Positions 1 to 60,168 of a DNA stretch of 64,000 nt are shown piece by piece. Position numbers and translations under genes: made by a program. A model generated the notes under the pieces. The model ran no database searches. It was not told where the DNA came from and worked only from the letters and a program-made list of their open reading frames with translations. The DNA comes from an uncultured Armatimonadota bacterium (GTDB lineage Bacteria > Armatimonadota > Fimbriimonadia > Fimbriimonadales > Fimbriimonadaceae): assembly GCA_903833215.1 (NCBI GenBank), contig CAILEM010000009.1:124001-188000 (forward strand), written 5' to 3'. How positions within the stretch are numbered: the first letter of the stretch is position 1; every line of letters begins with the position of its first letter.

Positions 1-1236
1 GAGGTTCTTCCTTTGCCTTACGAGAAGGTCAAATTCCTAGAAAATGCGCCGTACCACTATCGACTCAAGCCAAACGGTGCAACCACGCTGATCGACTGGA
101 ATTGGAACGGGGTGTTTGGCGAACACCACATCAAGGCGGATATCAACTACGCATACTCAACGACGGGTGGTCGCCGTGACGTTGTCGATAAGACGGAGTG
201 TGCTCCTTGGCTAGTTGCACATAACGGTAAGGCTTACCTGTTGTATTCCAAGAGTGATGCGCCCTTGGATCCCAAATCAGACCCTTCGGTGAGCACGGCT
301 CGCCCGGGGACGCTCTACATTAAGCGCCTGATCAAACCCTACGAGTGGGAGCCATCCAACTCGATAAACATCAGTGTGGTTAGTGGAGACCCTACAGCGG
401 TCAGTTTCGATGGCAAGATCGTTGTTGCCTATCCGTCAACGGGTGGAATTTTGGTCCAAGACGTCGAAGATCTTGGGAAAGGGATTAGCGTCAGCGCGCC
501 GACAGTTGTGAATTCGGACGGCTCGCTTGTTCCTGCTATGTGTGCGTTCAACGGCAAGCTGTGGTTGTTCCTTTGGGATCCGAAGACTCAGACGACGACG
601 TATCAGATCGTTCGAGGTGGCAAATCCGAACCTCAAGTCCTTCCTGACAAGAGCACGGGTCCGATCGGCCCAGCGGTAGACACGTTGAAACACCAACTCA
701 TTCTTGGGATGTCTCAGGATGAGGATGCCGCTCACCCTGCTCATTGGCAGATCCGTCGGTATGCGTTCAAGGATTCGAAATTCATCAATGCGACCATGGA
801 TTGGATCGAGGGTCCAAAAGGCGGTACTCGCGGTCGCTCCCGTCCGGTAGTGCTGTTCGATCCAAGTAAAGTCAACGGTCCTGAAGGGAAGATCTACTAC
901 TTCACGCTCGGCGATCACGGCAAAGAGAACCCCTGGAATTGTTGCTATGTCTCCGAGAGCATCGGCGATAAAACGGTTCGAAGCGGATGGCGAACGAAGC
1001 GATTCTACGACGAGTGGACCCAGTCGCGATCCGCTCCGGCAGCAGCTTTCTTCGGGGGCGACATCATCTATTCGTACCGGTGGATCGATGGTGGCCGTGG
1101 CCCTACCGACAACCAACTTCAGGTTTCCTATCGAGCGACCGGCGTTGAGATCGAGCCGATGGGAGATTTCGACGACCTAACCTATCTCCACGATTTCGGG
1201 ATCGCACACTGCATTTTGTATTTGAATAAGCAGTAG
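1..1236 (+). CDS. C-terminal part of a large beta-propeller-like protein (5' partial)
   Basis: The frame is open to the left edge: codons before the TTG at 13 read through without a stop, so this is the 3' end of a longer gene. The visible part has recurring 'NGK + hydrophobic strand' units (NGKAYLLYS, DGKIVVAYP, NGKLWLFLW), spaced like blades of a beta-propeller. A DWNWNG motif near the start resembles Ca-binding or linker motifs seen in secreted proteins. No catalytic motif is visible. I infer an extracellular binding or structural repeat region, possibly the C-terminal part of a secreted peptidase or lectin. The family is not recognised with certainty. The stop lies 25 nt before hicA. Confidence 0.6.
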   Translation, partial: EVLPLPYEKVKFLENAPYHYRLKPNGATTLIDWNWNGVFGEHHIKADINYAYSTTGGRRDVVDKTECAPWLVAHNGKAYLLYSKSDAPLDPKSDPSVSTARPGTLYIKRLIKPYEWEPSNSINISVVSGDPTAVSFDGKIVVAYPSTGGILVQDVEDLGKGISVSAPTVVNSDGSLVPAMCAFNGKLWLFLWDPKTQTTTYQIVRGGKSEPQVLPDKSTGPIGPAVDTLKHQLILGMSQDEDAAHPAHWQIRRYAFKDSKFINATMDWIEGPKGGTRGRSRPVVLFDPSKVNGPEGKIYYFTLGDHGKENPWNCCYVSESIGDKTVRSGWRTKRFYDEWTQSRSAPAAAFFGGDIIYSYRWIDGGRGPTDNQLQVSYRATGVEIEPMGDFDDLTYLHDFGIAHCILYLNKQ

Positions 1237-11171: not shown

Positions 11172-13430
11172 ATGTCGAAAGCTTTGTTTCGCCGTGCCTC
11201 GTGGCACCTTCTCTCCGCTGTTGTAGGGATGTTCGCTCTATCCGTTGCTGGTGTGAATGCACAGACCCCAACTTCGTGGAAGAGCGTGGGAGTTGGTGGT
11301 GGCGGAGCATTCTTTGCACCCACGTTCAATCCATTCAGCTCTAACGAGATGTGGCTGGCATGCGACATGAGCGGCCAGTACCACTCCACCAATTCCGGTG
11401 CATCCTGGTCGGTGACACCGTTTTCAAACATTGAAAATGGTCCGAACTCGCCTCACGTGCAGTACACGAGCGATCCAAAGATCCTCTACATGGTGGACGC
11501 AAGCAACGACAGCATGACCCCCGTCAAGAGCACCGACGGTGGGGCCACATGGAGCAAACTACCGTCAGATCCATCTGGACAAGGAGCCTTCTATATGGCT
11601 GCAGACTGGACGACGACGACGCGGCTGTTCGTTACGAGCTATTCAACACTTTACTTTTCAGCCAACGCCGGAAAGACTTGGAGTACCGTCGTTGCGGGCA
11701 ACAACAGCGCTGGGGTTGTTCTTGGTGGCACCCAATTTGACGGACAGAACATCACCGTTGCTACCAGTCTTGGCGTTTATGTTTCAAAAAACGGCGGAAC
11801 ATCGTTTAGCAAGCTTGCGACACCAGGGATTCCTGCAACCGAACAGATCGTCAGTTTTGCGGCGGGCAAGGTCGGTACGACCACCCGTTTCTTTGCAGTG
11901 ACTCTGAAGTCTGGGAATATCTGGGGAGGCATTGGCGGAGATAACTACAACGCGTATTCGGGCGTCTATAGCCTCGATTACGGAACCTCGACTTCCTGGA
12001 CAAAGCGAGTTTCCGGAATTCCGACCGGCGAGTATCCGTTCTTCGTCCGCATGGCTCGAAACGATATCAACACGGTTTATTTGGCAGGCAGTTGTGACGC
12101 AAGCACGCCAGTCATTCTCAAATCCACAAACGGAGGGCAGAGCTGGGCGGATGCGTTCTTTCCCGCCAATAACAAGAACGTGATTACCGGTTGGCAAGGG
12201 GCCGGCGGTGACCGTCAGTGGTCCTACGACCAACTTTGCTTTGGATTCACGGTTTGCCCAACCGACTCGAATCGAGCTGCCTTTACTGGCTTCGGTTTCT
12301 GCCATATCACGACGAACGGCGGTAAGACCTGGCAACAGACCTATGTGAATCCAGCTAGTCAGAACCCCGCGAATGCGGCGACACCAAAAGGCAAGTCGTA
12401 TGTGGGTAACGGATTGGAGAACACGTCTTGTTGGTGGTTGACATGGCTGGATGCGTCGAACGTCTGGGCATCTTTCTCTGATATCCAAGGCATTCGTAGC
12501 ACCGATGCTGGCGTATCGTGGAGCTTCAACTACACGGGTCAATCGCTTAACTCCTCGTACCAGGTCGCCAAGAACGCGGCCGGAGCGATGTTCATGGCGA
12601 CGTCCTCAATCCACGATATGTATCAGAGCACGCACTTGACAGATGCACGTATCGACAGTGGAAGTGGAAACGTGCTGACCTCGACCGACAAAGGGAAGAC
12701 TTGGACCAAGATTGGTTCGATTGGTCACGTTGTGATGGGTGTCGCGGTTGACCCCACAAATGCGAAGAGACTTTATGCAACCGTAGCCCACAGCACGCTC
12801 GGGGGAGTGTACGTCTGTGCGGATATCACGAAGGGTGCCTCGGCGACCTGGACGAAGCTTGCGGCGCCACCGCGCACCAAGGGCCACGCGTTCAATATAG
12901 TCGTACTCAACGACGGCACCCTCGTCTCCACATTCAGTGGTCGTATGGCACCAAGCTTCACCGACTCCTCTGGCGTCTTTGTCAGCACGAACGGTGGGAC
13001 GACATGGACCGATCGATCGGCGGCGAATATGCATTGGTGGATGATGGACATCACCATTGATCCCGGTGACTCCAAGCAGAACACCTGGTACGGCTCCGTT
13101 TTCAGCGGATGGGGTGGCACCGCCAACAATCGAGGTGGTCTGTACAAAACGACCAATCGTGGTGTTACTTGGACGCAGGTATGGGCCTCCGATCGGGTTG
13201 GCTCATGCAGCATCGACCCCAAGAATCCGAAGATCATGTACATTACGACCGAGACTCAAGGGCTCTGGGCGAGCGTCAACGCCAACGCCGCGACTCCAAC
13301 CTTCACTCAGGTGACGTCGTATCCGTTCCGCCAGCCCGAGCGAGTGTTCTTCAACCCGAACAAGGCAGGCGAGGTTTGGGTGACCAGCTTTGGGAACGGG
13401 ATCAAGATTGGGACGCAGTCTGTGCCTTAG
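11172..13430 (+). CDS. secreted BNR/Asp-box repeat protein, GH74-like (xyloglucanase/sialidase fold)
   Basis: About 752 residues from ATG 11172; a GTG at 11154 in the same frame adds six. A signal peptide (LLSAVVGMFALSVAGVNAQ) is followed by tandem propeller blades with Asp-box motifs such as STNSGASW, STDGGATW, SANAGKTW, STNGGQSW, TTNGGKTW, STNGGTTW and TTNRGVTW. The opening VGVGGGGAF resembles the first blade of GH74 endo-xyloglucanases. The catalytic Asp pair cannot be assigned by eye, so hydrolytic activity is inference; a non-enzymatic glycan-binding propeller is the alternative. Exported, probably periplasmic or extracellular. It faces the GH38 gene tail to tail. Confidence 0.8.
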   Translation: MSKALFRRASWHLLSAVVGMFALSVAGVNAQTPTSWKSVGVGGGGAFFAPTFNPFSSNEMWLACDMSGQYHSTNSGASWSVTPFSNIENGPNSPHVQYTSDPKILYMVDASNDSMTPVKSTDGGATWSKLPSDPSGQGAFYMAADWTTTTRLFVTSYSTLYFSANAGKTWSTVVAGNNSAGVVLGGTQFDGQNITVATSLGVYVSKNGGTSFSKLATPGIPATEQIVSFAAGKVGTTTRFFAVTLKSGNIWGGIGGDNYNAYSGVYSLDYGTSTSWTKRVSGIPTGEYPFFVRMARNDINTVYLAGSCDASTPVILKSTNGGQSWADAFFPANNKNVITGWQGAGGDRQWSYDQLCFGFTVCPTDSNRAAFTGFGFCHITTNGGKTWQQTYVNPASQNPANAATPKGKSYVGNGLENTSCWWLTWLDASNVWASFSDIQGIRSTDAGVSWSFNYTGQSLNSSYQVAKNAAGAMFMATSSIHDMYQSTHLTDARIDSGSGNVLTSTDKGKTWTKIGSIGHVVMGVAVDPTNAKRLYATVAHSTLGGVYVCADITKGASATWTKLAAPPRTKGHAFNIVVLNDGTLVSTFSGRMAPSFTDSSGVFVSTNGGTTWTDRSAANMHWWMMDITIDPGDSKQNTWYGSVFSGWGGTANNRGGLYKTTNRGVTWTQVWASDRVGSCSIDPKNPKIMYITTETQGLWASVNANAATPTFTQVTSYPFRQPERVFFNPNKAGEVWVTSFGNGIKIGTQSVP

Positions 13431-13468
13431 GCTCATTCAGGCACTCCGCCTGTCGAACCTAGCCATCG

Positions 13469-13607
13469 ATGATGCCTCCAGCCGGAGCCGTTAGGCGGAG
13501 CCTGGAGGCTAACCATTGAGTACTTGGTAGGCAAACGGCGTGTTCACCTTCGAAAGCAGTCCGTTCTAGCCTCCAGGCTCCGCTTTCGCTTCGGCTGGAG
13601 GCATCAT
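13469..13607. repeat. long inverted repeat between convergent genes
   Basis: The arm at 13469-13511 and the arm at 13567-13607 are near-perfect reverse complements of about 42 nt (outer ATGATGCCTCCAGCC; inner GGAGCCTGGAGGCTA), mismatched only in a short central stretch. Each arm also contains a smaller inverted repeat. The 55-nt spacer shows no gene. It may serve as a two-way terminator for the BNR and GH38 genes, or be a repeat element. Confidence 0.8.
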
Positions 13608-13657
13608 CCTCAGGTTGAGCCCGCAAAACTCACCGTCCGGAGAAAGTAGACAATGGC

Positions 13658-16600
13658 TTAGCTAAGCTTGACCTTCAACGTCTTAATCTCAAACGGCTTG
13701 AAGAACAACTCGACCTCTCCAAACTCTTGAGCGATAGGCTCTGGGGATTCTTCTAGGAGGTTGACTTCGCTGACCGACTCGATCGGGATGTTGAACTTCA
13801 CACGGACGTATCCCGCCGCCTTGCCTGCTTCGTAGAGTCGGACGATGAGGTCATCATCATCTTCCGCCTTCTTTACGGCGGCAACGATCACATTGGGTTG
13901 GTCAACAGAGAGGAGGCTGAAGCTCGAAGGATTGGCCGATGCCGGGCGAACGGTTGGGCTGACGTTGAACTCGAATGCGGGTCGGACTATCGACTCGACG
14001 CTGAATCCTCCCTGGTGGGGGAGCATCGCATAGGCGAAGCGGTGCTGACCTTCGTCTCCGCGTGGATCCGGGTGTCGACCGGATTTAATGAGACTCAATC
14101 GGTAGTCGCCATCCTTGATCGTGCATGCGTACTTGCAGTCATTTAGGAATGCTATGCCAAACCCGTTCTCCGAGATGTCAGTCCACTTGTGGGCGCACAC
14201 GTCGAACTGAGCGCGATCTTGGCTCGTATTGTCGTGCGAATTGCGTTGCACATGCCCGAACTGGATTTCGTGAAGTGCAGTCTCGGCAAGCACGTCGGGT
14301 GAGAATCCGACCTTAAGAAATTGGTATTTCTCGTGCCAATAGACAACCGTGTCGAAATCAACCCGCGGCGTCGTCGCATGGAAAACGATGTCTTGAATGA
14401 GGCGGGAAGAACGACCAATCTCGAACTCTTGGCGAATTCGCAGTTGGAGAGGGCCATCACTGACAACCTCGCGCTTGACGGGTGCACCGACCTCGGCCAT
14501 CTTGTGCCGTTGATCTCGGTCGATATCCCAGTTATCCCAGGCAGCGGGCACATCTTCTCCGAGGAGAAGGTGGTTGAACGAGCACTCTGGTCGGACTAAC
14601 TCGCGCCGGGATGCCCGGTCGAAGAACGAGGTGATATGGCCAGCGTCGTCAAACCACGCGATTGCGAACGGTGTTTCAACGGCATTGTCCGTGTAGCGAA
14701 ACGGTGATGGCTCGTCTGTGATGTCCTCCATAGGAACTGTCACAAATCCGAGAGCGGGGACTTCAATGCCTTTTACCGCTAGCAACATTTCGCCCGTTAC
14801 ATTCACGATGGCTTGCGCCGTGGAACCCACCGGCTTTTTGCCTTCTGGAATTCCAGAAAGTGTGATCTCATCGCTGAGATCCCAACTTAAGGAGTTGGCG
14901 ATTAACACACCATCTGAACTTGGGCTGCCTGCAAGGGAATCGAGCCCAGCATCACGAAGAGCCAAGGTCGACTCAAGGCAGGTTGCGTAGGCGGCAATCG
15001 CTTCATCATTTACTTCGGCAATGGCAGAGCCTGGCAGGATGTCGTGGAAGTGATTAAGCATCACGATCTTCCAGGCATCGTCAAAGCTGGACGTTGGGTA
15101 CGCGACACCCTTGATCACTTTTGCCAATGTTGCCGCGAACTCGGCTTGGTTAAGTGCGAACTCGCACTGCCGGTTGCCACGCTTGATGGCTGCGATCGAC
15201 GTCAATGTGCCCCGATGCAGTTCGAGATAAAGCTCTCCAACCCACTTTGGCAGTTCCAAGAGGTCATCGCGAATGCCGCACATGAACTCGCTGATGGAGG
15301 AGTACTCGGTCTTGGGACAGCCTTCCAGATCACCGGTGTAACGCATGATCTCGATCATCTCTGACATGGGACCACCGCCTCCGTCGCCGTGTCCAAAGCC
15401 GACCATGCGTCGATCCTGAACGTCAGGATGCTGAACTTGCTTCCACAGGTGAATCAATCGCTCGGGATCAGCCCAGCCCTGCATCTCGTTAAAGTGAGCG
15501 AGAACGGAGGTTCCGTCGATGCCCTGCCAATGGAACGTGTCGTAGGGGAAGTGGTTGGTATCGTTCCAACTCAGCTTGGTCGTGCAGAAGAATTCGACGC
15601 CACTCTTGCGAAGGATCTGGGGGAGGGCGGCACTGTAACCGAAGACGTCGGGTTGCCAAAGGGTATCCGCCGTAATGCCGAACATTTCGCGAATTCCGCG
15701 CTGACCGTAAAGGCACTGCCGAACGAAAGATTCGCCGCTTGGGATGTTGCAGTCAGGTTCGATCCACATGCAGCCGTTGATCTCAAACCGGCCCTCTTTG
15801 ACCTTCTCTTGCACTCGGGCAAAGATGTCTGGATACAGCTTCCGCAGCATGTCGAAGTGAAGCGCTGCACTTTGTGAGAAGCGGAACTCCGGGTACTGGT
15901 CCATCAGACTCAGCACCGAAGAGAAAGTGCGAGCACACTTGCGCCATGTCTCAGCGACCGGCCATAGCCAGGCGGTGTCGATGTGAGAGTGACCAAAGAC
16001 GCCCATCGTGGGAGTCGTGGGTCCGTTTCGCTGCTCTAGGAGTGGCCGCATGACTTCGGTCGCGGCGATAAGCGCCTCGCGCCATTCGATCTCGTCAACC
16101 TCTGCCGGCACTTGTGGGACGAGATTGAAGATTTCTCCCATCGCCGATACGATCTTTGCTCGACGCAAGCTGCTTGGGTCCTGTCCAGCCGCGACCTGCA
16201 TAAGTGTGTGGAGCGAGAAGACAAATTCGCTGACCTCAGGGCGCTCCACCACCAACTCAACCGACCCGTAGGTCAGGCCATCGGCTGTGATTGCAACGGG
16301 ACCGTCAGCGCTTCGTGTTTCCGAAAATGGTTGTGTTCCAGGGAAAGTGTGACCGGCATAGGACTCTAGATGGATCTGATAGTCCCTTAATGTGTCGGCT
16401 TCTAAAGCGAGCAGACGGACCGGATGATTGACATCGAAAACGCCTTGTGCGGAGCTGTCGACGATGAACATCGTCTCGGGGCCGCCGGTATTGGCGCGGA
16501 TGTATACCGTCTCGCCGTCAAATTCGGCAGGAACGCGTACGGTACCGCGAAACCACCCGGTGAGCCAGTTATCACCCCAGCGTCGTCCACTTTCGATCGG

Positions 16601-25918: not shown

Positions 25919-27046
25919 ATGAGTACGCCTTCAGACAGATTGATCGCGGCACTTGAGTTGTTTTCGAGCAAAGTAGATTCCACGCGTGAAGAGGGATTTT
26001 CCAGGCTTGTGGCTCGGAGTCGTCCGTTCCTCAATTCTCTGCTCGCGAACTCGCTAAGGTCCGAGTCGGATCGAGAAGACATCATTCAGCAAATCTTCCA
26101 GCGTGTGTGGAAATCCCGCGAACGATTTGAATTCACGACAGTTGGTGCATGGTGGCGATTTCTGCGAACGATGACGCGCAATTGCTTGATTGACCACGTC
26201 AGATCTCAATCCGAGACTGCCAGCCTAGAGGACCTAGAACTCCAGGATATTCCACCTGCCGAAATCGAAATGGTCGATGCCGTAGTTGAGGCGATGGAGG
26301 ACCGTCGCCTTTTGTATCGCCTGGCAGATGAGCTATTTCTTGACCTGCCACAGGGCATATCTGATTCGTTGCGGACGCACCATTTGCTCGCAGCCAAACT
26401 TTTCCTGATTGATCGAATGCCATGGCAAACCGTGTGTCGAATCATGAATTCGCAGACAAACGAATTTGAACTCATGGGGAGGAGCGACCTAGACCGAATC
26501 GTGTCGGATCCATCGCTGATACGTCATTTGGCTTTCACAGAGCTGCATTGGGAAAACGAACAACTCTGTGCTTACCTTCTTGAGATCGGTAGTGATCCAG
26601 GTAAAGACAGCCTGGGGCTAGAGAATCCATGGTCAGAGGAGCAGAAAGAGGCGATTCAACTGCGATTTCAGTACGCCCTGCTGCTTGATCAAATATTGAG
26701 TCGTTTAGGTACTTCTGTAAATAAATCAGAATTAGTTGCAATTTTTGATAGGTGCGTGCAACTTTTTCCGTTTGTAGAGATCATGTATCGCCTTCGCCAA
26801 AACGTTGGGCCGGTTAAGGGGGGCCTTGACCAGTTGGCCTCACCTGGACTCTGGCACCGCATGGTGTTCCAGTATCATTGCCACAACGCTCTACCCCAAA
26901 AGGATATCCTCGATCGAACTGCTGGCGCCGCACAAGCTGCTGGTACCGATGTTACACCTGGCAAATTAAACGTTGGCCTTAGCAATGGCCGATTGTTTAA
27001 GAAGTTAGCAGACTACTATCTTCAGAGAGGTTCTGATGGTTATTAG
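25919..27046 (+). CDS. sigma-70-like regulator with atypical C-terminal region
   Basis: 375 residues. Residues about 25-96 are a sigma-70 region 2 of the ECF kind (SDREDIIQQIFQRVWKSRE, then GAWWRFLRTMTRNCLIDHVR). A weak region-4-like stretch may lie at 143-178 (LPQGISDSLR then FLIDRMPWQTVCRIMN), but the usual helix-turn-helix is not convincing. About 190 further residues follow, far longer than normal ECF factors (about 180-200 aa), ending with LNVGLSNGRLFKKLADYYL, which may be a second DNA-binding or docking helix pair. It overlaps the next gene by 11 nt, and the CHAT gene follows. I infer a dedicated transcription regulator of this operon; direct promoter recognition is unproven. Confidence 0.75.
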   Translation: MSTPSDRLIAALELFSSKVDSTREEGFSRLVARSRPFLNSLLANSLRSESDREDIIQQIFQRVWKSRERFEFTTVGAWWRFLRTMTRNCLIDHVRSQSETASLEDLELQDIPPAEIEMVDAVVEAMEDRRLLYRLADELFLDLPQGISDSLRTHHLLAAKLFLIDRMPWQTVCRIMNSQTNEFELMGRSDLDRIVSDPSLIRHLAFTELHWENEQLCAYLLEIGSDPGKDSLGLENPWSEEQKEAIQLRFQYALLLDQILSRLGTSVNKSELVAIFDRCVQLFPFVEIMYRLRQNVGPVKGGLDQLASPGLWHRMVFQYHCHNALPQKDILDRTAGAAQAAGTDVTPGKLNVGLSNGRLFKKLADYYLQRGSDGY

Positions 27047-28127
27047 CGAATCCGAAGAGGGGCTGTCTGCAGCCTCGGTGAGCCTGTTGTGTGCGGTAGC
27101 TGCGACACGAATCGCACCTGACTCGGCGGGCAGTGTTCCCAAGCGTGAACTCGTCCGCTACATAGCAGGAGTGCTTTCGAGCCAGGAAGCTCAGAAGATC
27201 GAAGAGGGCGCGGTGGCCAGACCAACCACACGCTATGAACTGTCGAAAACTCTTGCGCTGGTCGAAAGCTATTGCAATACGCCCTATTCGGCCTTGGGTC
27301 TGGGGCCCGTCGGAGTCAGTGAGGATTTTGAATCCATCCTAGAGTGGAATGCAGTAGTCGAAAATCATGTTCGTGTTATAAGCCACGAACTCCAAGGAGC
27401 GACTCCCACCACTTGGGCAGCACTGTCAAAACTTTCGAAGCAAGGGGCAGACGGCTATCTTGCCGCCAAAACCATTTGGGGTGCATTCTTTTCGACGTTA
27501 AGCATGACTTCGGGTCCACTGAAACTTGGATTTGGATATCGGCGTGGGGCAACTGGTTCGATCGAGCCACTTAAGCTCTTCACCAGGCTTGAAGCAAGCG
27601 TCCTTGATTCTGGTGACTTGGAGATCTTTGCGGAAGCAAAGCCTGGGACAACTGACCGTGCCGTGTATTTTGGTTTCTCACACCAAAGGAGAGCATTGCC
27701 CCTGGTGGAAGGGATGCTACTTAACGGTCAAGTCAAATTGACCATTGATGGCTTTGGTGGATTTCTTCGGTTGCCTGTTGGGCCAGTATCCAGAAACTCC
27801 CTCACCGCCCGATTTGAGGATTGGCCCGATGAATGCAAGTTTGGGCAAATTCTTGTTCAACCTTGGGGTGGAACAAGCCCATCTGTTGAGCTTCCGATCA
27901 TCAGTGACGGGAAGTTACTGCTCCCAAGTCGTTTTGAAGATCCGCAACTGGAGGGACAATGGGAGCTACTTTTGGCGGTGACGCCGAATTGCTGGCAAAT
28001 GTTGGCCCATTTTGATATAAAGTGTGAGTTCGGAAGGCGGCAAGTACTATCGGCAGATTTGCCGGGGACTGTCAGGGAGGGCCCTTTCGGAGGCGCACTT
28101 TGGTTACGACGGCAATTGCCTCGGTGA
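27036..28127 (+). CDS. unrecognised protein between sigma-like and CHAT genes
   Basis: 363 residues with no family I recognise and no signal peptide or membrane span. The N-terminal third is helical, with VPKRELVRYIAGVLSSQEAQ and then KIEEGAVARPTTRYELSK. That layout loosely recalls the N-terminal helices of anti-sigma factors (LVRYI.G.LS..E...IE), but the zinc-binding His/Cys residues are absent. The C-terminal 190 residues look all-beta. ATG 27036 has an AGAGAGG at a good distance and overlaps the end of the sigma-like gene, so translation is probably coupled. A sensor or anti-sigma role is inference from position and weak pattern only. Confidence 0.7.
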   Translation: MVISESEEGLSAASVSLLCAVAATRIAPDSAGSVPKRELVRYIAGVLSSQEAQKIEEGAVARPTTRYELSKTLALVESYCNTPYSALGLGPVGVSEDFESILEWNAVVENHVRVISHELQGATPTTWAALSKLSKQGADGYLAAKTIWGAFFSTLSMTSGPLKLGFGYRRGATGSIEPLKLFTRLEASVLDSGDLEIFAEAKPGTTDRAVYFGFSHQRRALPLVEGMLLNGQVKLTIDGFGGFLRLPVGPVSRNSLTARFEDWPDECKFGQILVQPWGGTSPSVELPIISDGKLLLPSRFEDPQLEGQWELLLAVTPNCWQMLAHFDIKCEFGRRQVLSADLPGTVREGPFGGALWLRRQLPR

Positions 28128-28151
28128 CAACCACGTGCGCCGATCTATGGC

Positions 28152-31100
28152 ATGGGCGCACATCGTATCGGTCAACGCGGCGGTTACTCTGACCTAAAAC
28201 TAAGGTTGGAGCAAGTGGGCAACCGCGTCGTAGCCGAGCTTTCAAGTTATGACGATCTAAATGGTCCCTGCTTGGCGCGACATGAAAGTGAACCCAATTG
28301 GGAGGCGATCCGACATGGCGTCGACGTGCTTCAGAACCCTGAACTAAATCCTGGGCGGCTCATTACGTCTCTTGGCGAGGAGTTGGGGCGCATTGGCTTC
28401 GGTTTCCCGATCCAGTCCGTGCTTGCTGCACATCTTGAGAATAGAATTGTACGGCTCTGGCTCAATGCATTTGGAGCGTTGGCCAGCCTTCCGTGGGAGG
28501 CGTCTACATTTCCTGAGGAAAGTGGTCCGCTCGTCGGCACACTGAGTATCCATCCGGGGCTGAGCCTCATTCGCGAAGTGGACGGTCGCAAAAACCTCCT
28601 CCCGAGAACGTCATCCACTCCCCGCGTGCTCGTGGTCTGGGCGGACCCTGCTTCCCACGAGTATCGACGACTTGCTGGCATCGACAAGGAGGTGCGCAGC
28701 ATTACTCGCGCCCTTTCTGTGCCCGAGTGTCGGCGATTTGTGGTGCAGGAGATTGGATTTGCGACTCGGTCGTCGCTTATCCGGTCACTGGAGTCATTCA
28801 AACCTGACATTCTCCACTTTGTTGGTCATGGCGATATCCTTCCAACTGGGGGAGTCCTGATCCTGGAAAGTGGCCGCCCGAATGAGGCTGCACAAATTCA
28901 TGCTGATGAACTGGCGGAGTTGCTAGTTGAGGCAAACGTTCAACTTGCTGTTTTGTCAGGGTGTATGACGGGTGAATCCGTCTCTGGCATTGGTGCGGGT
29001 TTGGTAAGAAGCGGAATTGCTGCTGTCGTAGGCATGCAGGCACCCATTAGCGATTTATCGGCTGGTCTATTTGCCCGAGCCTTCTACAGTAGCCTTGGCG
29101 TAGGCGAATCCGTCGATGACGCCGTTATACAGGCGAGAGGAGCCATTCGAGGTGCCTACAACGATTGGGCGATACCGGTAGTCTTCCGAACCGCGTTTGA
29201 AGGACCGTGTTTTGATGACAAGCCCAGTGGTGATGTGGTACCCGAGCCAGCGAAGAAGACTCATAACCTGACTTACGATGATCGTCCCTTCATCGGACGT
29301 CAAAAGGAACGAGTTGAGATTCGAGATCGTATCTGTGTCAAAAAGCAACGATTACTTACCATCACGGGGATGGGTGGTATGGGCAAGACCCGATTGGGAA
29401 AACAAGTCGCTGCCGAATTGATCGATGACTTTCCGGATGGCGTTTGGATGGTGGAGTGTGACGCCATCGAAGGGCGTGAGCAGTTGGTCGGATCGATTGC
29501 TGAAGCCATTGGTTTGAGTAACTCAAGCTCAAGCATCGAATCTGAATTGATTGAGCACCTATCCACGCGAAAACTCCTTCTACTGCTCGACTGCTTCGAA
29601 AAACACGTTTCTCTCGCTGACTTCATCGATTCAGTCCTGAAACAGTCCCCAGATTGCCAAGTGCTTGTTACGAGCCGGATTCTGCTCGGACTATCCCGAG
29701 AGTTTGAGTACCGTCTCAACCCCATGACATGGCGGAAGAAGGCGGGTGAACCTATGAGTGACAGCATCTCACTCTTCACAGAAGCCGCCAGTCATGCGGT
29801 TAACGAGTTTCAAGTGACCGCCAAGAGCAGGGCACTGATTCAAGAGCTATGTCAATTGCTTGAAGGAGTGCCTCTCGCACTGGTACTTGCGGCAGGCCGC
29901 CTTCGGCATTTGAGTCTAGTGGAGTTAGTGGAGCAGATCCGACTCCACCCACTTGAGGTCTTAAAACGGAGAGGAGGGCCCAAGGATCGCCAGGCCGACC
30001 TCTATCGGGTTGTCGCGACTTCATTCTTACTGTTGGGCCAACGGGAATGCGGCCTTCTCGATAAACTCAGCCTGTTCGTTGGGAGCTTTAATGTCGAAGA
30101 CGCAGCGAAGGTCATCGGATGGTCGAAGATTGAAATCCTTCACGGGCTCTCAACATTGCGAGATCACTCGTTGATCCAAGTCCACGTCGTTGACGATCGA
30201 ACCCGCTATAAGCTCCTCGACACTGTTCGCGAGTTTTTGGAGCAGCTTCCGCGGGAAGATTCCGAATTGCAGGAACGACAGGCGTGTGCGGAGAGACATG
30301 CAAGGCTCTACGGTGGAACTGCCGAAGAGATCGGAAATCTCATGCTCGAGGGCCGTTGGAAAGATGGAACCACTCGCCTTTGGGCTGAAATTGGGAATCT
30401 GCGGGCCGCCTGTAAATTCGCCGAAAGCTCCGGCATGCATGAGTCGGCGCGTACTCTTGCTGGCGGACTTTGCCGAGCCTATTTCGATATGGCTTTGACC
30501 ACCGACTTCGACCAGGTCATTCGGATGGGGTTTGCTGCAGCCAGGGCCCTTAACGATCGCGAACTGGAAATTAAGCTTCTTGGGCTCTCCGGCGCAGATG
30601 CTGCGGTCAGAAAAGATGAGGCAGGGTGGCGATCCCGGTGGGGACGCCGTCTGGAGTTGTGCAATTTGATCGGTGATCTTCCTGGCGCTATGGATTGTCT
30701 TTTCGACATGGCTTGGGAGTGCGTCGTTCTATCAGACAATACGACGGCAGAGGAGTACCTCGCTCGGGCCGAAAAAATCGCGGCGGAGGCTTCGAACCAT
30801 GGATATATCGCAAGCTGCTACGTTGTAAGAGCACAGATCGAAATACGGGCAGGAAGGTTTTCTGAAGCTAAAGTCTGGGTTGCACAAGCCAAGGATGCGT
30901 TACGACAGTGTGAAGATAAATCGAAGCTCGTCTATGTGAACCAGCACCTATGCTACTTGAATGAGCAACTTGGGGACCTCCCGAATGCGATATCTGCTGC
31001 ACTCACGATGATTAGACTATCTATGGAATCACACCGCCATCGGAACATAGCATGGGGGCTGCTGCGTCTCGCGGATTTCCATGAGCGAAGTCATCGTGTG

Positions 31101-31292
31101 AGGGAGAGCGTACTATGCCACTTGGCGGCCCTGAAGCTACAGACTGAATTTCCGACCCGACAAGGTGAGAAGGCTCGGCAAATCTACAATCAGTTCCTGA
31201 AGAAGCACGAAGAGGCAGAGCCTCTGGCCTTGGGTTACAAAAAAAGTGGGTGGCCAATCCTAGTGAAGGAAATCCTCGGAACGGCCACCTAG
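28152..31292 (+). CDS. CHAT protease - NB-ARC NTPase - TPR protein
   Basis: 1046 residues in three parts. (1) CHAT caspase-like protease, about 90-350: the His motif LHFVGHGD (His226) and the Cys motif LAVLSGCMTGES (Cys271) are both intact, so it should be catalytically competent. (2) NB-ARC/STAND NTPase, about 378-600: FIGRQKER, Walker A GMGGMGKT (406-413), Walker B LLLLLD (Asp480), a TSR sensor at 507-509 and GVPLAL (574-579), followed by a winged-helix stretch. (3) Tetratricopeptide-like helical repeats from about 700 to the end. This is the architecture of a ligand-sensing STAND switch holding a protease. It lies 24 nt after the unrecognised gene, same strand, apparently one operon with the sigma-like regulator. 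The substrate is unknown. Confidence 0.93.
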   Translation: MGAHRIGQRGGYSDLKLRLEQVGNRVVAELSSYDDLNGPCLARHESEPNWEAIRHGVDVLQNPELNPGRLITSLGEELGRIGFGFPIQSVLAAHLENRIVRLWLNAFGALASLPWEASTFPEESGPLVGTLSIHPGLSLIREVDGRKNLLPRTSSTPRVLVVWADPASHEYRRLAGIDKEVRSITRALSVPECRRFVVQEIGFATRSSLIRSLESFKPDILHFVGHGDILPTGGVLILESGRPNEAAQIHADELAELLVEANVQLAVLSGCMTGESVSGIGAGLVRSGIAAVVGMQAPISDLSAGLFARAFYSSLGVGESVDDAVIQARGAIRGAYNDWAIPVVFRTAFEGPCFDDKPSGDVVPEPAKKTHNLTYDDRPFIGRQKERVEIRDRICVKKQRLLTITGMGGMGKTRLGKQVAAELIDDFPDGVWMVECDAIEGREQLVGSIAEAIGLSNSSSSIESELIEHLSTRKLLLLLDCFEKHVSLADFIDSVLKQSPDCQVLVTSRILLGLSREFEYRLNPMTWRKKAGEPMSDSISLFTEAASHAVNEFQVTAKSRALIQELCQLLEGVPLALVLAAGRLRHLSLVELVEQIRLHPLEVLKRRGGPKDRQADLYRVVATSFLLLGQRECGLLDKLSLFVGSFNVEDAAKVIGWSKIEILHGLSTLRDHSLIQVHVVDDRTRYKLLDTVREFLEQLPREDSELQERQACAERHARLYGGTAEEIGNLMLEGRWKDGTTRLWAEIGNLRAACKFAESSGMHESARTLAGGLCRAYFDMALTTDFDQVIRMGFAAARALNDRELEIKLLGLSGADAAVRKDEAGWRSRWGRRLELCNLIGDLPGAMDCLFDMAWECVVLSDNTTAEEYLARAEKIAAEASNHGYIASCYVVRAQIEIRAGRFSEAKVWVAQAKDALRQCEDKSKLVYVNQHLCYLNEQLGDLPNAISAALTMIRLSMESHRHRNIAWGLLRLADFHERSHRVRESVLCHLAALKLQTEFPTRQGEKARQIYNQFLKKHEEAEPLALGYKKSGWPILVKEILGTAT

Positions 31293-31305: not shown

Positions 31306-32046
31306 CTAAATCGTATAAGTTTTAATGATGACGCCGTATACGATGACTTGCCCGAGTTCATTGGCGTCCCCCATGACCATGGCGCAGTTTTGAACCGGTT
31401 GAGGGGATGCCGGATCATGAGCCGAATCCACTGCTTTCGCAGTTGGTATCTCGCCTTGATACACCACGTTGGGTGGTAAGGCGGGATCCAGCACAAATAG
31501 GAGCTTCTTGTCGTCTGGTACAGGCGAGCCGCTTATTGTCTGGGGGAGCGAGTTCATGGCGTCAATGAATACGGATGGGGAAGAGACGCTCGTGAAAATG
31601 GTATTCGCAACCTGCAGCGGCGTGAAGTTGGTGAAGTGGAGATGGGTATGAATGACATTTCCAACACGCAATACTTCGAGAGGTTCTCCCTCAGGAAAGA
31701 GGGCACCCTGCGACGGTGGCGCTTCAGCAAGGGTGCTGTATCGCACACGGATTACCGGCGTCTTGTGAATGCCTTGCACGTGGATGTATGGCTTTGCCGT
31801 TCCTCCGGTGGCATCGGAAGCGGGAAGTACACTGCCAGGCACTTCATGAAACACGACCACAAATGGCTGGATCACAATCGCGGGTTCGTCTCCGAACTTA
31901 ACGTATTGGCTAACCCATCCTGCAGGGTCCGCCAAGACGTCCAATAGCTCGGCATGATCTGTCTCCAACACCCAAAGGGCATCGTCGGCAGCTACATTAT
32001 AAAGATTGATTTTCGGAGAAGGATTAGACAGGGATTCGTCGGACAT
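31306..32046 (-). CDS. hypothetical protein convergent with the CHAT gene
   Basis: 246 residues, no signal peptide, rich in Pro, Val and Thr with predicted strands (KPYIHVQGIHKTPVIRVRYS, VIHTHLHFTNFTP). No family is recognised. Its stop is 13 nt from the CHAT gene's stop (convergent), so it is not in the same transcript. Its start region faces rpsU. An exported or structural beta protein is possible but not supported by any motif. Confidence 0.65.
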   Translation of the reverse strand: MSDESLSNPSPKINLYNVAADDALWVLETDHAELLDVLADPAGWVSQYVKFGDEPAIVIQPFVVVFHEVPGSVLPASDATGGTAKPYIHVQGIHKTPVIRVRYSTLAEAPPSQGALFPEGEPLEVLRVGNVIHTHLHFTNFTPLQVANTIFTSVSSPSVFIDAMNSLPQTISGSPVPDDKKLLFVLDPALPPNVVYQGEIPTAKAVDSAHDPASPQPVQNCAMVMGDANELGQVIVYGVIIKTYTI

Positions 32047-32204
32047 GAATGCTCCTCGTTCGTTTATGGATGAACGCTACATTCAACGGATTGATAAGAA
32101 TCGATCTATCGTTCACGTGTATAACCTGGTAAACACACGGGTAGGTCGTCATTTTCCGACGAAATCTGTGTCATACTATGTGCCTTGCGGAGGCATTTGA
32201 GTTC

Positions 32205-39937: not shown

Positions 39938-39958
39938 TTTGATTTTGGTTAGGTCAGA

Positions 39959-40651
39959 CTACATGCCGCCCATGCCGCCGCGTCCGCCGCCGCCCATGCC
40001 GCCGCCGCTACCGCCGCCCATGCCGCCGCCCATACCGCCGCCGCCCATGCCGCCGCCCATACCGCCGCCCATGCCGCCGCCCATACCGCCGCCGCCCATG
40101 CCGCCGCCCATGCCGCCACCCATACCGCCGCCACCGCCACCGGAGCTACCTTGCTTTGACAAGGTGCTGATCTCAGGTGGGATCTGGTACGACTGGTTGC
40201 CAGACTTGGCACCGAGCATTGCTGCGATGAATGCAGGGTCGGCCGATCGAATCTTGATTCTTCGAATGATGGTCGTCTTGACGGGGCCAACGTTCTCTGA
40301 GCTACCCGCAGTTGGAGCGGTTGTTTCAGCTCTCTTGACGATTTCGAATACGCCACCCTCAACACGATAGGTTGAGTCGACTTGTCGAAGGACATTCTGA
40401 AGAGCCGTCTCGAACGTAACGTTCTTGAGGCTAACCGTTACGACGCCCTGGACCTCAGGTGCAATCGAATACGATACGCTGACGTTCTTGAACAGTGCTC
40501 GAAGAGCTTCGCGAACGTCGGCTTGGTCGAGTTCCAGTGAAGGAATCGTTTTTTGGGAAATGTCTTCCTGAGCTGCGGCCATTCGTGGCATGCCGCCTAT
40601 CAAAAAGACACCTAGGACAGTAGCAAGTACTGCCTTGAACAATGATCTCAT
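39959..40651 (-). CDS. exported STN/secretin-N domain protein with Gly/Met-rich tail
   Basis: 230 residues. A signal peptide (VLATVLGVFLIGGMPRMAAAQ) is followed by an STN-like domain at about 36-108 (LELDQADVREALRALFKNV, then YSIAPEVQGVVTVSLKNV, FETALQNVLRQV), the fold at the start of secretins and TonB-type proteins. No secretin pore domain follows. The last 60 residues are almost only Gly and Met, in GGGM repeats with 12 Met. AGGAGG at 40659-40664 gives a perfect ribosome site 7 nt before ATG 40651. It could bind a secretin or outer-membrane partner; the tail could be a flexible, possibly metal-binding or adhesive region. Both roles are inference. Confidence 0.85.
   Translation of the reverse strand: MRSLFKAVLATVLGVFLIGGMPRMAAAQEDISQKTIPSLELDQADVREALRALFKNVSVSYSIAPEVQGVVTVSLKNVTFETALQNVLRQVDSTYRVEGGVFEIVKRAETTAPTAGSSENVGPVKTTIIRRIKIRSADPAFIAAMLGAKSGNQSYQIPPEISTLSKQGSSGGGGGGMGGGMGGGMGGGGMGGGMGGGMGGGMGGGGMGGGMGGGSGGGMGGGGRGGMGGM
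39962..40147. repeat. coding low-complexity repeat (Gly/Met tract)
   Basis: About 185 nt built of CCGCC/CAT units on the plus strand, i.e. GGC-GGC-GGC-ATG codons on the coding minus strand. Units of 12 and 15 nt alternate. Such a tract can change length by slippage, so tail length may vary between strains. Confidence 0.85.
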
Positions 40652-59952: not shown

Positions 59953-60168
59953 TTATATGGCTCGTGCATTGTCGGCTAGCTGCTCGTACTCTTGATTTAT
60001 ATGATTTTCTAATGGATTGCTACGTTTCGTACAATACTCAGCTAGTTTTCGCAACGCCCGTTCTGAGGTCAGATCTAACCTGTTTGGGCTTGTGAGACAC
60101 AAGCTTAACAGCGAAAAGGCCTCTTCTTCGGTGAGCCGAAGTCCATCTGGATTTTGTCCAGCTATCAT
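59953..60168 (-). CDS. small hypothetical protein
   Basis: 71 residues, soluble and helical (LTEEEAFSLLSLCLTSPNRLD, then ERALRKLAEYC). A perfect AGGAGG 7 nt before ATG 60168 and an immediate terminator show it is a real one-gene transcript. The family is not recognised. Confidence 0.75.
   Translation of the reverse strand: MIAGQNPDGLRLTEEEAFSLLSLCLTSPNRLDLTSERALRKLAEYCTKRSNPLENHINQEYEQLADNARAI

Follow-up and report, generated by a model that had tools for sequence, protein, structure and literature searches.

The window analyzed here, a stretch of 64,000 nucleotides from an uncultured Armatimonadota bacterium, carries a cassette of four genes. These encode an extracytoplasmic function (ECF)-type sigma factor, a predicted anti-sigma factor, a CHAT protease fused to an NB-ARC (STAND) NTPase and a TPR-like region, and, in convergent orientation, a fourth protein (Table 1). 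In the model we favor and regard as probable, the cassette forms a cytoplasmic, CRISPR-free switch that works by regulated proteolysis: the STAND-TPR part would sense, CHAT would cleave the anti-sigma factor and the sigma factor would transcribe the fourth gene. Evidence from sequence, predicted structure or genomic context supports the association of the four genes, the anti-sigma identity of the middle protein, the promoter and the intactness of the protease and NTPase motifs. The three open reading frames (ORFs) of the plus strand lie exactly where an initial annotation had placed them as a three-gene operon. This triad was confirmed, but the conserved fourth gene on the minus strand and its promoter had been missed.

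Relatives were collected by searches with the middle protein and with the family-specific C-terminal part of the sigma factor, and their neighborhoods were annotated with our own profiles. The homologues with named sources stem from Fimbriimonas and Armatimonadetes metagenome-assembled genomes; the window's genome (6.2 Mb) belongs to the same genus-level group. Beyond Armatimonadota, coverage comprised two peptide patterns, ~100 other genomes and plasmids. A contig end truncates three of the 30 sigma loci. In each of the 27 uncut loci the gene next to sigma encodes either a separate middle protein (20 loci, including the broken gene of L059; those of L075 and L067 were assigned by position and alignment) or a STAND-TPR fusion (seven loci). 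A CHAT-STAND(-TPR) gene follows the separate middle gene on the same strand in 16 of these 20 loci, adjoins it on the opposite strand in two (L056, L067) and is found elsewhere in the genome in two (G007, G025). In the F. ginsengisoli-like genome G007 it lies at 3.97 Mb and the sigma-middle pair at 2.71 Mb, 1.26 Mb apart; in G025 it occupies a contig start and the pair the region near the end of another contig. The number of full-length CHAT-STAND genes equals the number of pairs of sigma and separate middle gene in eight genomes, including the split G007. Across 81 genomes of the family, strong CHAT-domain homologues (E <= ~5e-21) are confined to genomes carrying the sigma factor, while the weaker matches look like other CHAT proteins. 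The three genes of the proposed operon thus keep their order in distant relatives, and CHAT homologues that never adjoin the other two genes, which had been named as grounds for abandoning the proposal, are not what we found.

A second copy of the cassette is present in the window's own genome (L006). The four proteins of L006 and of its relative L009 are 54, 41, 61 and 47% identical to each other and 35, 25, 40 and ~31% (the last over a short stretch) identical to those of the window. Each L006 protein is therefore more similar to its L009 counterpart than to that encoded in the window, so the four genes have diverged as a unit. L006 and L009 are both flanked by nuoFED, L007 and L008 by rsgA/surE (gene names read from the sequences by eye), and L055 and L058 have many flanking genes in common. 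Judged by this synteny, the loci are stable, vertically inherited chromosomal positions, which argues against a mobile defense island. Searches of plasmids found no sigma/middle/CHAT triad and no match to the middle protein or to the family-specific part of the sigma factor.

These positions bear on a different interpretation, a conflict or abortive infection system in which STAND would detect an invader and CHAT would kill the cell, the sigma and anti-sigma factors regulating expression of the system. CHAT and STAND domains are common in conflict systems. The PADLOC model SAVED_CHAT matches the protein at 4e-12, covering its CHAT part only; a Pfam scan of the third gene revealed no SAVED domain, so that the protein does not qualify as SAVED-CHAT. 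Genes for ECF sigma factors and DUF1822 proteins have also been described beside caspase systems (PMC8195603). However, the synteny and vertical inheritance of the loci near nuoFED or rsgA/surE, the lack of plasmid matches to the middle protein or to the family-specific part of the sigma factor, and a predicted promoter lying mainly before the fourth gene all speak against this interpretation, which we consider distinctly improbable. Cell suicide or phage defense, put forward in the initial annotation as an alternative to regulated proteolysis, is not supported either: the loci keep their chromosomal positions, and a predicted output gene behind a defined sigma promoter fits gene regulation.

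At the profile level, the middle protein is an anti-sigma factor; binding and inhibition of sigma are predicted from the 11-nucleotide gene overlap and the context. Its N-terminal pattern resembles that of zinc-finger anti-sigma domains minus the zinc ligands, and hhalign aligned this part to the zf-HC2 anti-sigma profile with a P-value of 4e-4. Among the controls, 23 unrelated windows reached 0.013 at best and 40 column shuffles 0.0046, and the reversed profile gave 0.24. When 19 middle homologues were searched against NCBIfam, three of them matched PRK13920, 'putative anti-sigmaE' (best E-value 0.0047), and further matches were to an 'antisigma' model (0.13) and one DnaJ-type model; singly, these E-values are weak. 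The profile of the 19 proteins, applied blindly to 397 genomes, gave seven weak matches in further families, all restricted to the N-terminal domain, and on reading every one of them was a zinc-finger or zinc-less anti-sigma protein or domain. An ECF-like sigma factor is adjacent or nearby in five of these cases and fused to the match in one; for the seventh (L183), no sigma gene was seen within the short stretch examined. An eighth weak match is one of the fused forms (G036:C2, identical to L069). Since the zinc ligands (HxxxCxxC) are absent across the family alignment, the protein is a zinc-less relative of the zinc-finger anti-sigma (ZAS) domains rather than a member.

The AlphaFold2 model of the middle protein (predicted local distance difference test, pLDDT, 81; predicted template modeling score, pTM, 0.79) shows N-terminal helices at residues 12-23, 36-44, 49-61 and 63-80, further helices and then a C-terminal beta region, the first part of which yielded Fn3-like matches with Z up to 5.8, i.e., a generic fold. 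A fold search with the full model returned these Fn3-like matches only, with no anti-sigma structure among the matches listed, and a profile search of PDB sequences gave nothing useful. The description of this protein as belonging to no recognized family therefore stands for Pfam, where a search with the window's protein found no family, but not for the zf-HC2, NCBIfam and blind profile matches. Two genomes contain full-length middle homologues (L177 7419-8492, +; L178 1628-2746, -) in conserved synteny beside aminotransferase-like and folC-like genes, as judged by eye; within the stretch examined, neither has a sigma, CHAT or fourth-family gene nearby.

Sequence and model place the first protein among the ECF sigma factors, with region 2 and a region 4 for reading the -35 element; DNA binding is predicted. 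Its AlphaFold2 model (pLDDT 86, pTM 0.69) superposes on region 2 of E. coli sigmaE with a Z-score of 11.8 and 2.0 Å over 94 residues, and structural alignments to AlgU, sigmaH and others span residues 5..209. In profile-profile comparison, residues ~149-209 matched the sigma4 profile of local ECFs with a P-value of 4e-5. Two later stretches showed weaker sigma4 similarity (4e-3 and 1.5e-3), and the predicted helices repeat as four-helix units at residues 149-209, 240-296 and 309-372; that the second and third of these represent additional sigma4-like modules is no more than a suggestion. The initial view of a region-2 sigma protein with a long, non-standard C-terminus was correct as to region 2 and the conserved extension, but the protein is not limited to region 2, given the sigma4-like unit. 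The window's own genome (G000) is rich in ECF sigma factors, with 36 Sigma70_r4_2 matches, and also encodes many NB-ARC relatives of the STAND-TPR part.

In the third protein, the CHAT domain carries its His/Cys dyad and the NB-ARC domain both Walker A and Walker B; proteolytic activity is predicted. All 20 CHAT proteins of the family retain the dyad (His226/Cys271) and 19 of the 20 an intact P-loop (Walker A), so both are under selection. The intact motifs and TPR-like repeats first read from the sequence were borne out by Pfam, the TPR match being weak; the TPRc profile is kept in fused relatives lacking CHAT as well. At L008 (8379-11513), the CHAT-STAND gene is full length except that TGA interrupts it in frame twice, at residues 598 and 704, indicating either a decaying copy or an assembly error.

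The seven fusion loci (L062, L066, L069, L070, L072-L074) join a short N-terminal part to STAND-TPR and contain no CHAT. The anti-sigma-like domain was recognized by profile in two of them (L062, 2e-3; L069, 2e-4), and the N-terminal parts of the other five were assigned by position. A fusion of the middle protein with CHAT was considered for the relatives and rejected on the basis of this architecture. Such fusions suggest a functional unity of sensor and inhibitor and, further, a switch that can at times do without the protease. The regulated proteolysis proposed in the initial annotation is partly supported: an anti-sigma signature makes the middle protein a natural target of proteolysis, and the fusions tie the sensor to the inhibitor.

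The convergent fourth gene follows the CHAT gene in 5/5 close loci. All 17 aligned members of its family share a C-terminal Cys and K-x-Y, and most have an N-terminal [DE]D..W-like motif; the members at L063, L065 and L140, with weak or absent profile scores, were assigned on motif and context. An 18th member, recognized by motif, is divergent from sigma at L067. A profile search of PDB sequences with the fourth protein gave nothing useful. The gene also occurs beside fused forms, and G007 has one beside each half of its split system. A specific tie to CHAT was rejected, since the gene is present in loci without it. At L079 (7951-8727), a family member was seen without sigma or CHAT neighbors in the stretch examined.

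A dyad search in ten upstream regions detected TAGAT-N15-CGTT before the fourth gene of four loci; the fifth has a variant that differs by one base. Shuffles reached <=3/10. We built a promoter matrix from five close loci and treated all others as held-out. Matrix sites were found at the held-out fourth genes of L066, L072, L073, L074 and L078 (scores 13.7-16.8). Scores in this range occur in about 1% of 310-bp pieces, a rate that includes true sites; five of 12 held-out genes at this rate correspond to ~1e-7 by arithmetic, ignoring relatedness. In L066, L073 and L078 the site coincides with the annotated ORF start or falls slightly within the ORF, and a later start codon is likely there. A scan of all ORFs (score >=15, <=150 nt upstream) picked out fourth genes, sigma genes (L059, L063), sigma-divergent genes (L054, L058, L067) and one stray (L056). 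Over 381 kb of held-out loci, 25 sites scored >=15 and nine >=17, as opposed to none in the reversed sequence. Strict patterns across four whole genomes gave 24 matches versus 10 in the reversed control, with four of the 24 upstream of fourth genes and four due to a coding coincidence (DRC...FPF in the sigma gene); a large regulon was not seen in this search and, given these counts, we do not claim one. A high-scoring promoter-like site with a spacer one base longer, GGTTAGATCTGACCTCAGAACGGGCGTT, lies far from the cassette at position 60080 (-) of the window.

On the evidence of gene context, the fourth gene belongs to the system, and in view of the conserved upstream promoter it is probably the output of the sigma factor. 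Its product might instead be a substrate of CHAT or a ligand of the TPR part, acting in feedback and not as output effector. The almost constant presence of the gene near the system, the invariant C-terminal residues and the two copies in G007 would suit such a role. However, the fourth gene carries the promoter, and its presence without CHAT means that the protein is not specifically a CHAT substrate; we rate feedback as rather unlikely.

In the switch that we propose, the anti-sigma factor would keep the sigma factor inactive until the third protein recognizes a signal or partner through its TPR part. NTP (nucleoside triphosphate)-dependent switching of STAND would then render the CHAT cysteine protease active, and CHAT would cut the anti-sigma factor, perhaps in the segment that separates its anti-sigma domain from its beta region. 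The sigma factor thus freed would transcribe the fourth gene from the GWTAGAT-N15-CGTT promoter. Binding, cleavage, trigger and direction of regulation are what we infer, with cleavage as the least certain step. Three points weigh against this sequence of events. CHAT is missing from the sublineage of fusion loci, hence the protease is not indispensable and STAND may act by conformation alone; the CHAT gene of G007 is unlinked to sigma and anti-sigma; and CHAT could have a substrate other than the anti-sigma factor, e.g., the fourth protein. The first point leads to partner switching, in which STAND-TPR would free sigma by an NTP-dependent conformational change, with CHAT acting elsewhere or only trimming the complex. 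In the seven fusion loci, release can apparently work without a protease. Yet the dyad is intact in every CHAT protein that accompanies a separate anti-sigma factor, and CHAT copy number tracks the anti-sigma factor; we judge partner switching unlikely.

In other families of Armatimonadota, the gene after CHAT encodes a protein of ~410-500 aa with an apparent signal peptide and, by eye, a beta-barrel-like C-terminus, for which a Pfam search found no family. Small, apparently related proteins are encoded divergently from sigma at several loci, and the predicted sigma promoter precedes this gene in L054, L055 and L058. Elsewhere in the window, at 39950-40159, a GCCGCCCAT-type repeat array with steps of 12-15 bases probably encodes, on the minus strand, a segment rich in Gly and Met, as read by eye.

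Table 1 Features of the cassette (window coordinates) and of related loci (locus coordinates).
Feature	Position	Strand	Basis
ECF-type sigma gene, 375 aa	25919..27046	+	ORF; Pfam Sigma70_r2 5e-11; AlphaFold2 model
Sigma region 2, residues 30-98	26006..26212	+	Pfam; structural match to E. coli sigmaE region 2
Sigma4-like four-helix unit, residues 149-209	26363..26545	+	Profile-profile; model helices; alignments 5..209
Conserved C-terminal extension, residues 240-296 and 309-372, two four-helix units	26636..27034	+	Model helices; family-specific profile A5
Predicted anti-sigma factor, middle gene, 363 aa	27036..28127	+	ORF; NCBIfam; blind profile matches
Zinc-less anti-sigma domain, residues 12-80, four helices	27069..27275	+	hhalign to zf-HC2; model helices
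C-terminal beta region, ~residues 180-360 (180-264 Fn3/Ig-like)	27573..28115	+	Model; Fn3-like matches
CHAT protease - NB-ARC STAND NTPase - TPR protein, 1046 aa	28152..31292	+	ORF; Pfam; relatives
CHAT protease domain (His226 codon 28827-28829, Cys271 codon 28962-28964)	28410..29156	+	Pfam CHAT 5e-30
NB-ARC (STAND) NTPase, Walker A (GMGGMGKT) and Walker B	29346..29936	+	Pfam NB-ARC 2e-11
TPR-like sensor region	29982..31274	+	Weak TPR_12; TPRc profile
Fourth gene, convergent, 246 aa, family without assigned function, predicted sigma output	31306..32046	-	Conserved beside triad; 17-member alignment
Predicted sigma promoter CGATAGATCGATTCTTATCAATCCGTTGAA, upstream of fourth gene	32082..32111	-	Conserved dyad GWTAGAT-N15-CGTT
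Post-CHAT apparently exported proteins (non-Fimbriimonadaceae)	L055 6300-7805, L057 5193-6617, L058 5730-7145, L060 1440-2780, L064 3275-4495, L071 5867-7135, L076 5773-7098
Small sigma-divergent proteins, apparently related	L054 1445-2044, L055 ~13200-13688, L058 13098-13571, L060 8050-8526

The closest parallel is Craspase (Cas7-11/Csx29 TPR-CHAT, Csx30, CASP-sigma), in which Csx30 binds and inhibits CASP-sigma and cleavage by Csx29 is proposed to relieve this inhibition (PMC10028731). Both systems combine a CHAT protease, a sigma-binding inhibitor (a predicted one in the cassette) and an ECF sigma factor in one locus, both have sigma motifs within their own locus, and a model of sigma release triggered by cleavage applies to both. 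The cassette differs in its domain order, CHAT-NB-ARC-TPR as opposed to the TPR-CHAT of Csx29, in a STAND NTPase taking the place of the RNA-guided trigger, in an inhibitor with a recognizable anti-sigma domain and in its predicted fourth output gene. No match to a RAMP effector (Cas7-11; PF03787) was found in the whole genome of the window and no CRISPR-like repeats near the cassette. With regard to Csx30, the NCBIfam matches of the middle homologues are confined to the anti-sigma models and the one DnaJ-type model, with no PDB chain of note.

Whether the cassette stands for a so far undescribed, CRISPR-free signaling class, in which an NLR-like STAND sensor with a CHAT protease governs transcription through cleavage of an anti-sigma factor in the cytoplasm, is in our estimate evenly balanced. 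If so, Craspase would represent an RNA-guided case of a CHAT / sigma-inhibitor / sigma architecture that extends beyond it, its puzzling sigma arm would have a CRISPR-free parallel, and NLR-like STAND sensing and caspase-fold proteolysis would be linked to transcription through an ordinary anti-sigma factor. The predicted promoter together with a reporter gene makes the model directly testable. A cultured soil bacterium may be suited to this, Fimbriimonas ginsengisoli, which appears to have the cassette in split form.

A second parallel is provided by prokaryotic conflict systems in which genes for ECF sigma factors and DUF1822 proteins lie next to caspase/EACC2 genes (PMC8195603). These loci and those of Tolypothrix resemble the cassette in having a (putative) sigma factor, a middle protein and a caspase-fold/CHAT protease as neighbors. 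On Tolypothrix plasmids, the genes run hypothetical protein, DUF1822, TPR-CHAT; the first gene has no sigma match in Pfam, and the TPR-CHAT protein shows no STAND among the matches listed. By eye, the hypothetical protein is perhaps a diverged sigma factor. It was seen with DUF1822 beside or near TPR-CHAT and CHASE2 genes (L145 1361-9036, L146 6491-12627). We rejected the idea that the middle protein is itself a DUF1822 protein: PF08852 had no match in 19 family members at E <= 10, and hhalign against two DUF1822 proteins gave a P-value of 0.39.

A description of the form that combines STAND-CHAT, anti-sigma factor and fourth gene was not found in the accessible literature, outside of which most subscription journals lie. 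Its inhibitor recalls the ZAS (zf-HC2) domains in the pattern L..YL.G.LS..E...VE..L....R..L directly downstream of an ECF sigma factor and departs from them in lacking zinc ligands and in the further helices and Fn3-like beta region that follow. The DegS/RseP-RseA-sigmaE pathway likewise controls an ECF sigma factor by protease-dependent release from its anti-sigma factor. The cassette, in contrast, has no apparent envelope protease or membrane-bound anti-sigma factor, and its protease, a CHAT cysteine protease joined to a STAND sensor, is predicted to be cytoplasmic. In outline, the kind of system represented by the cassette is known from Craspase and the DUF1822 loci.

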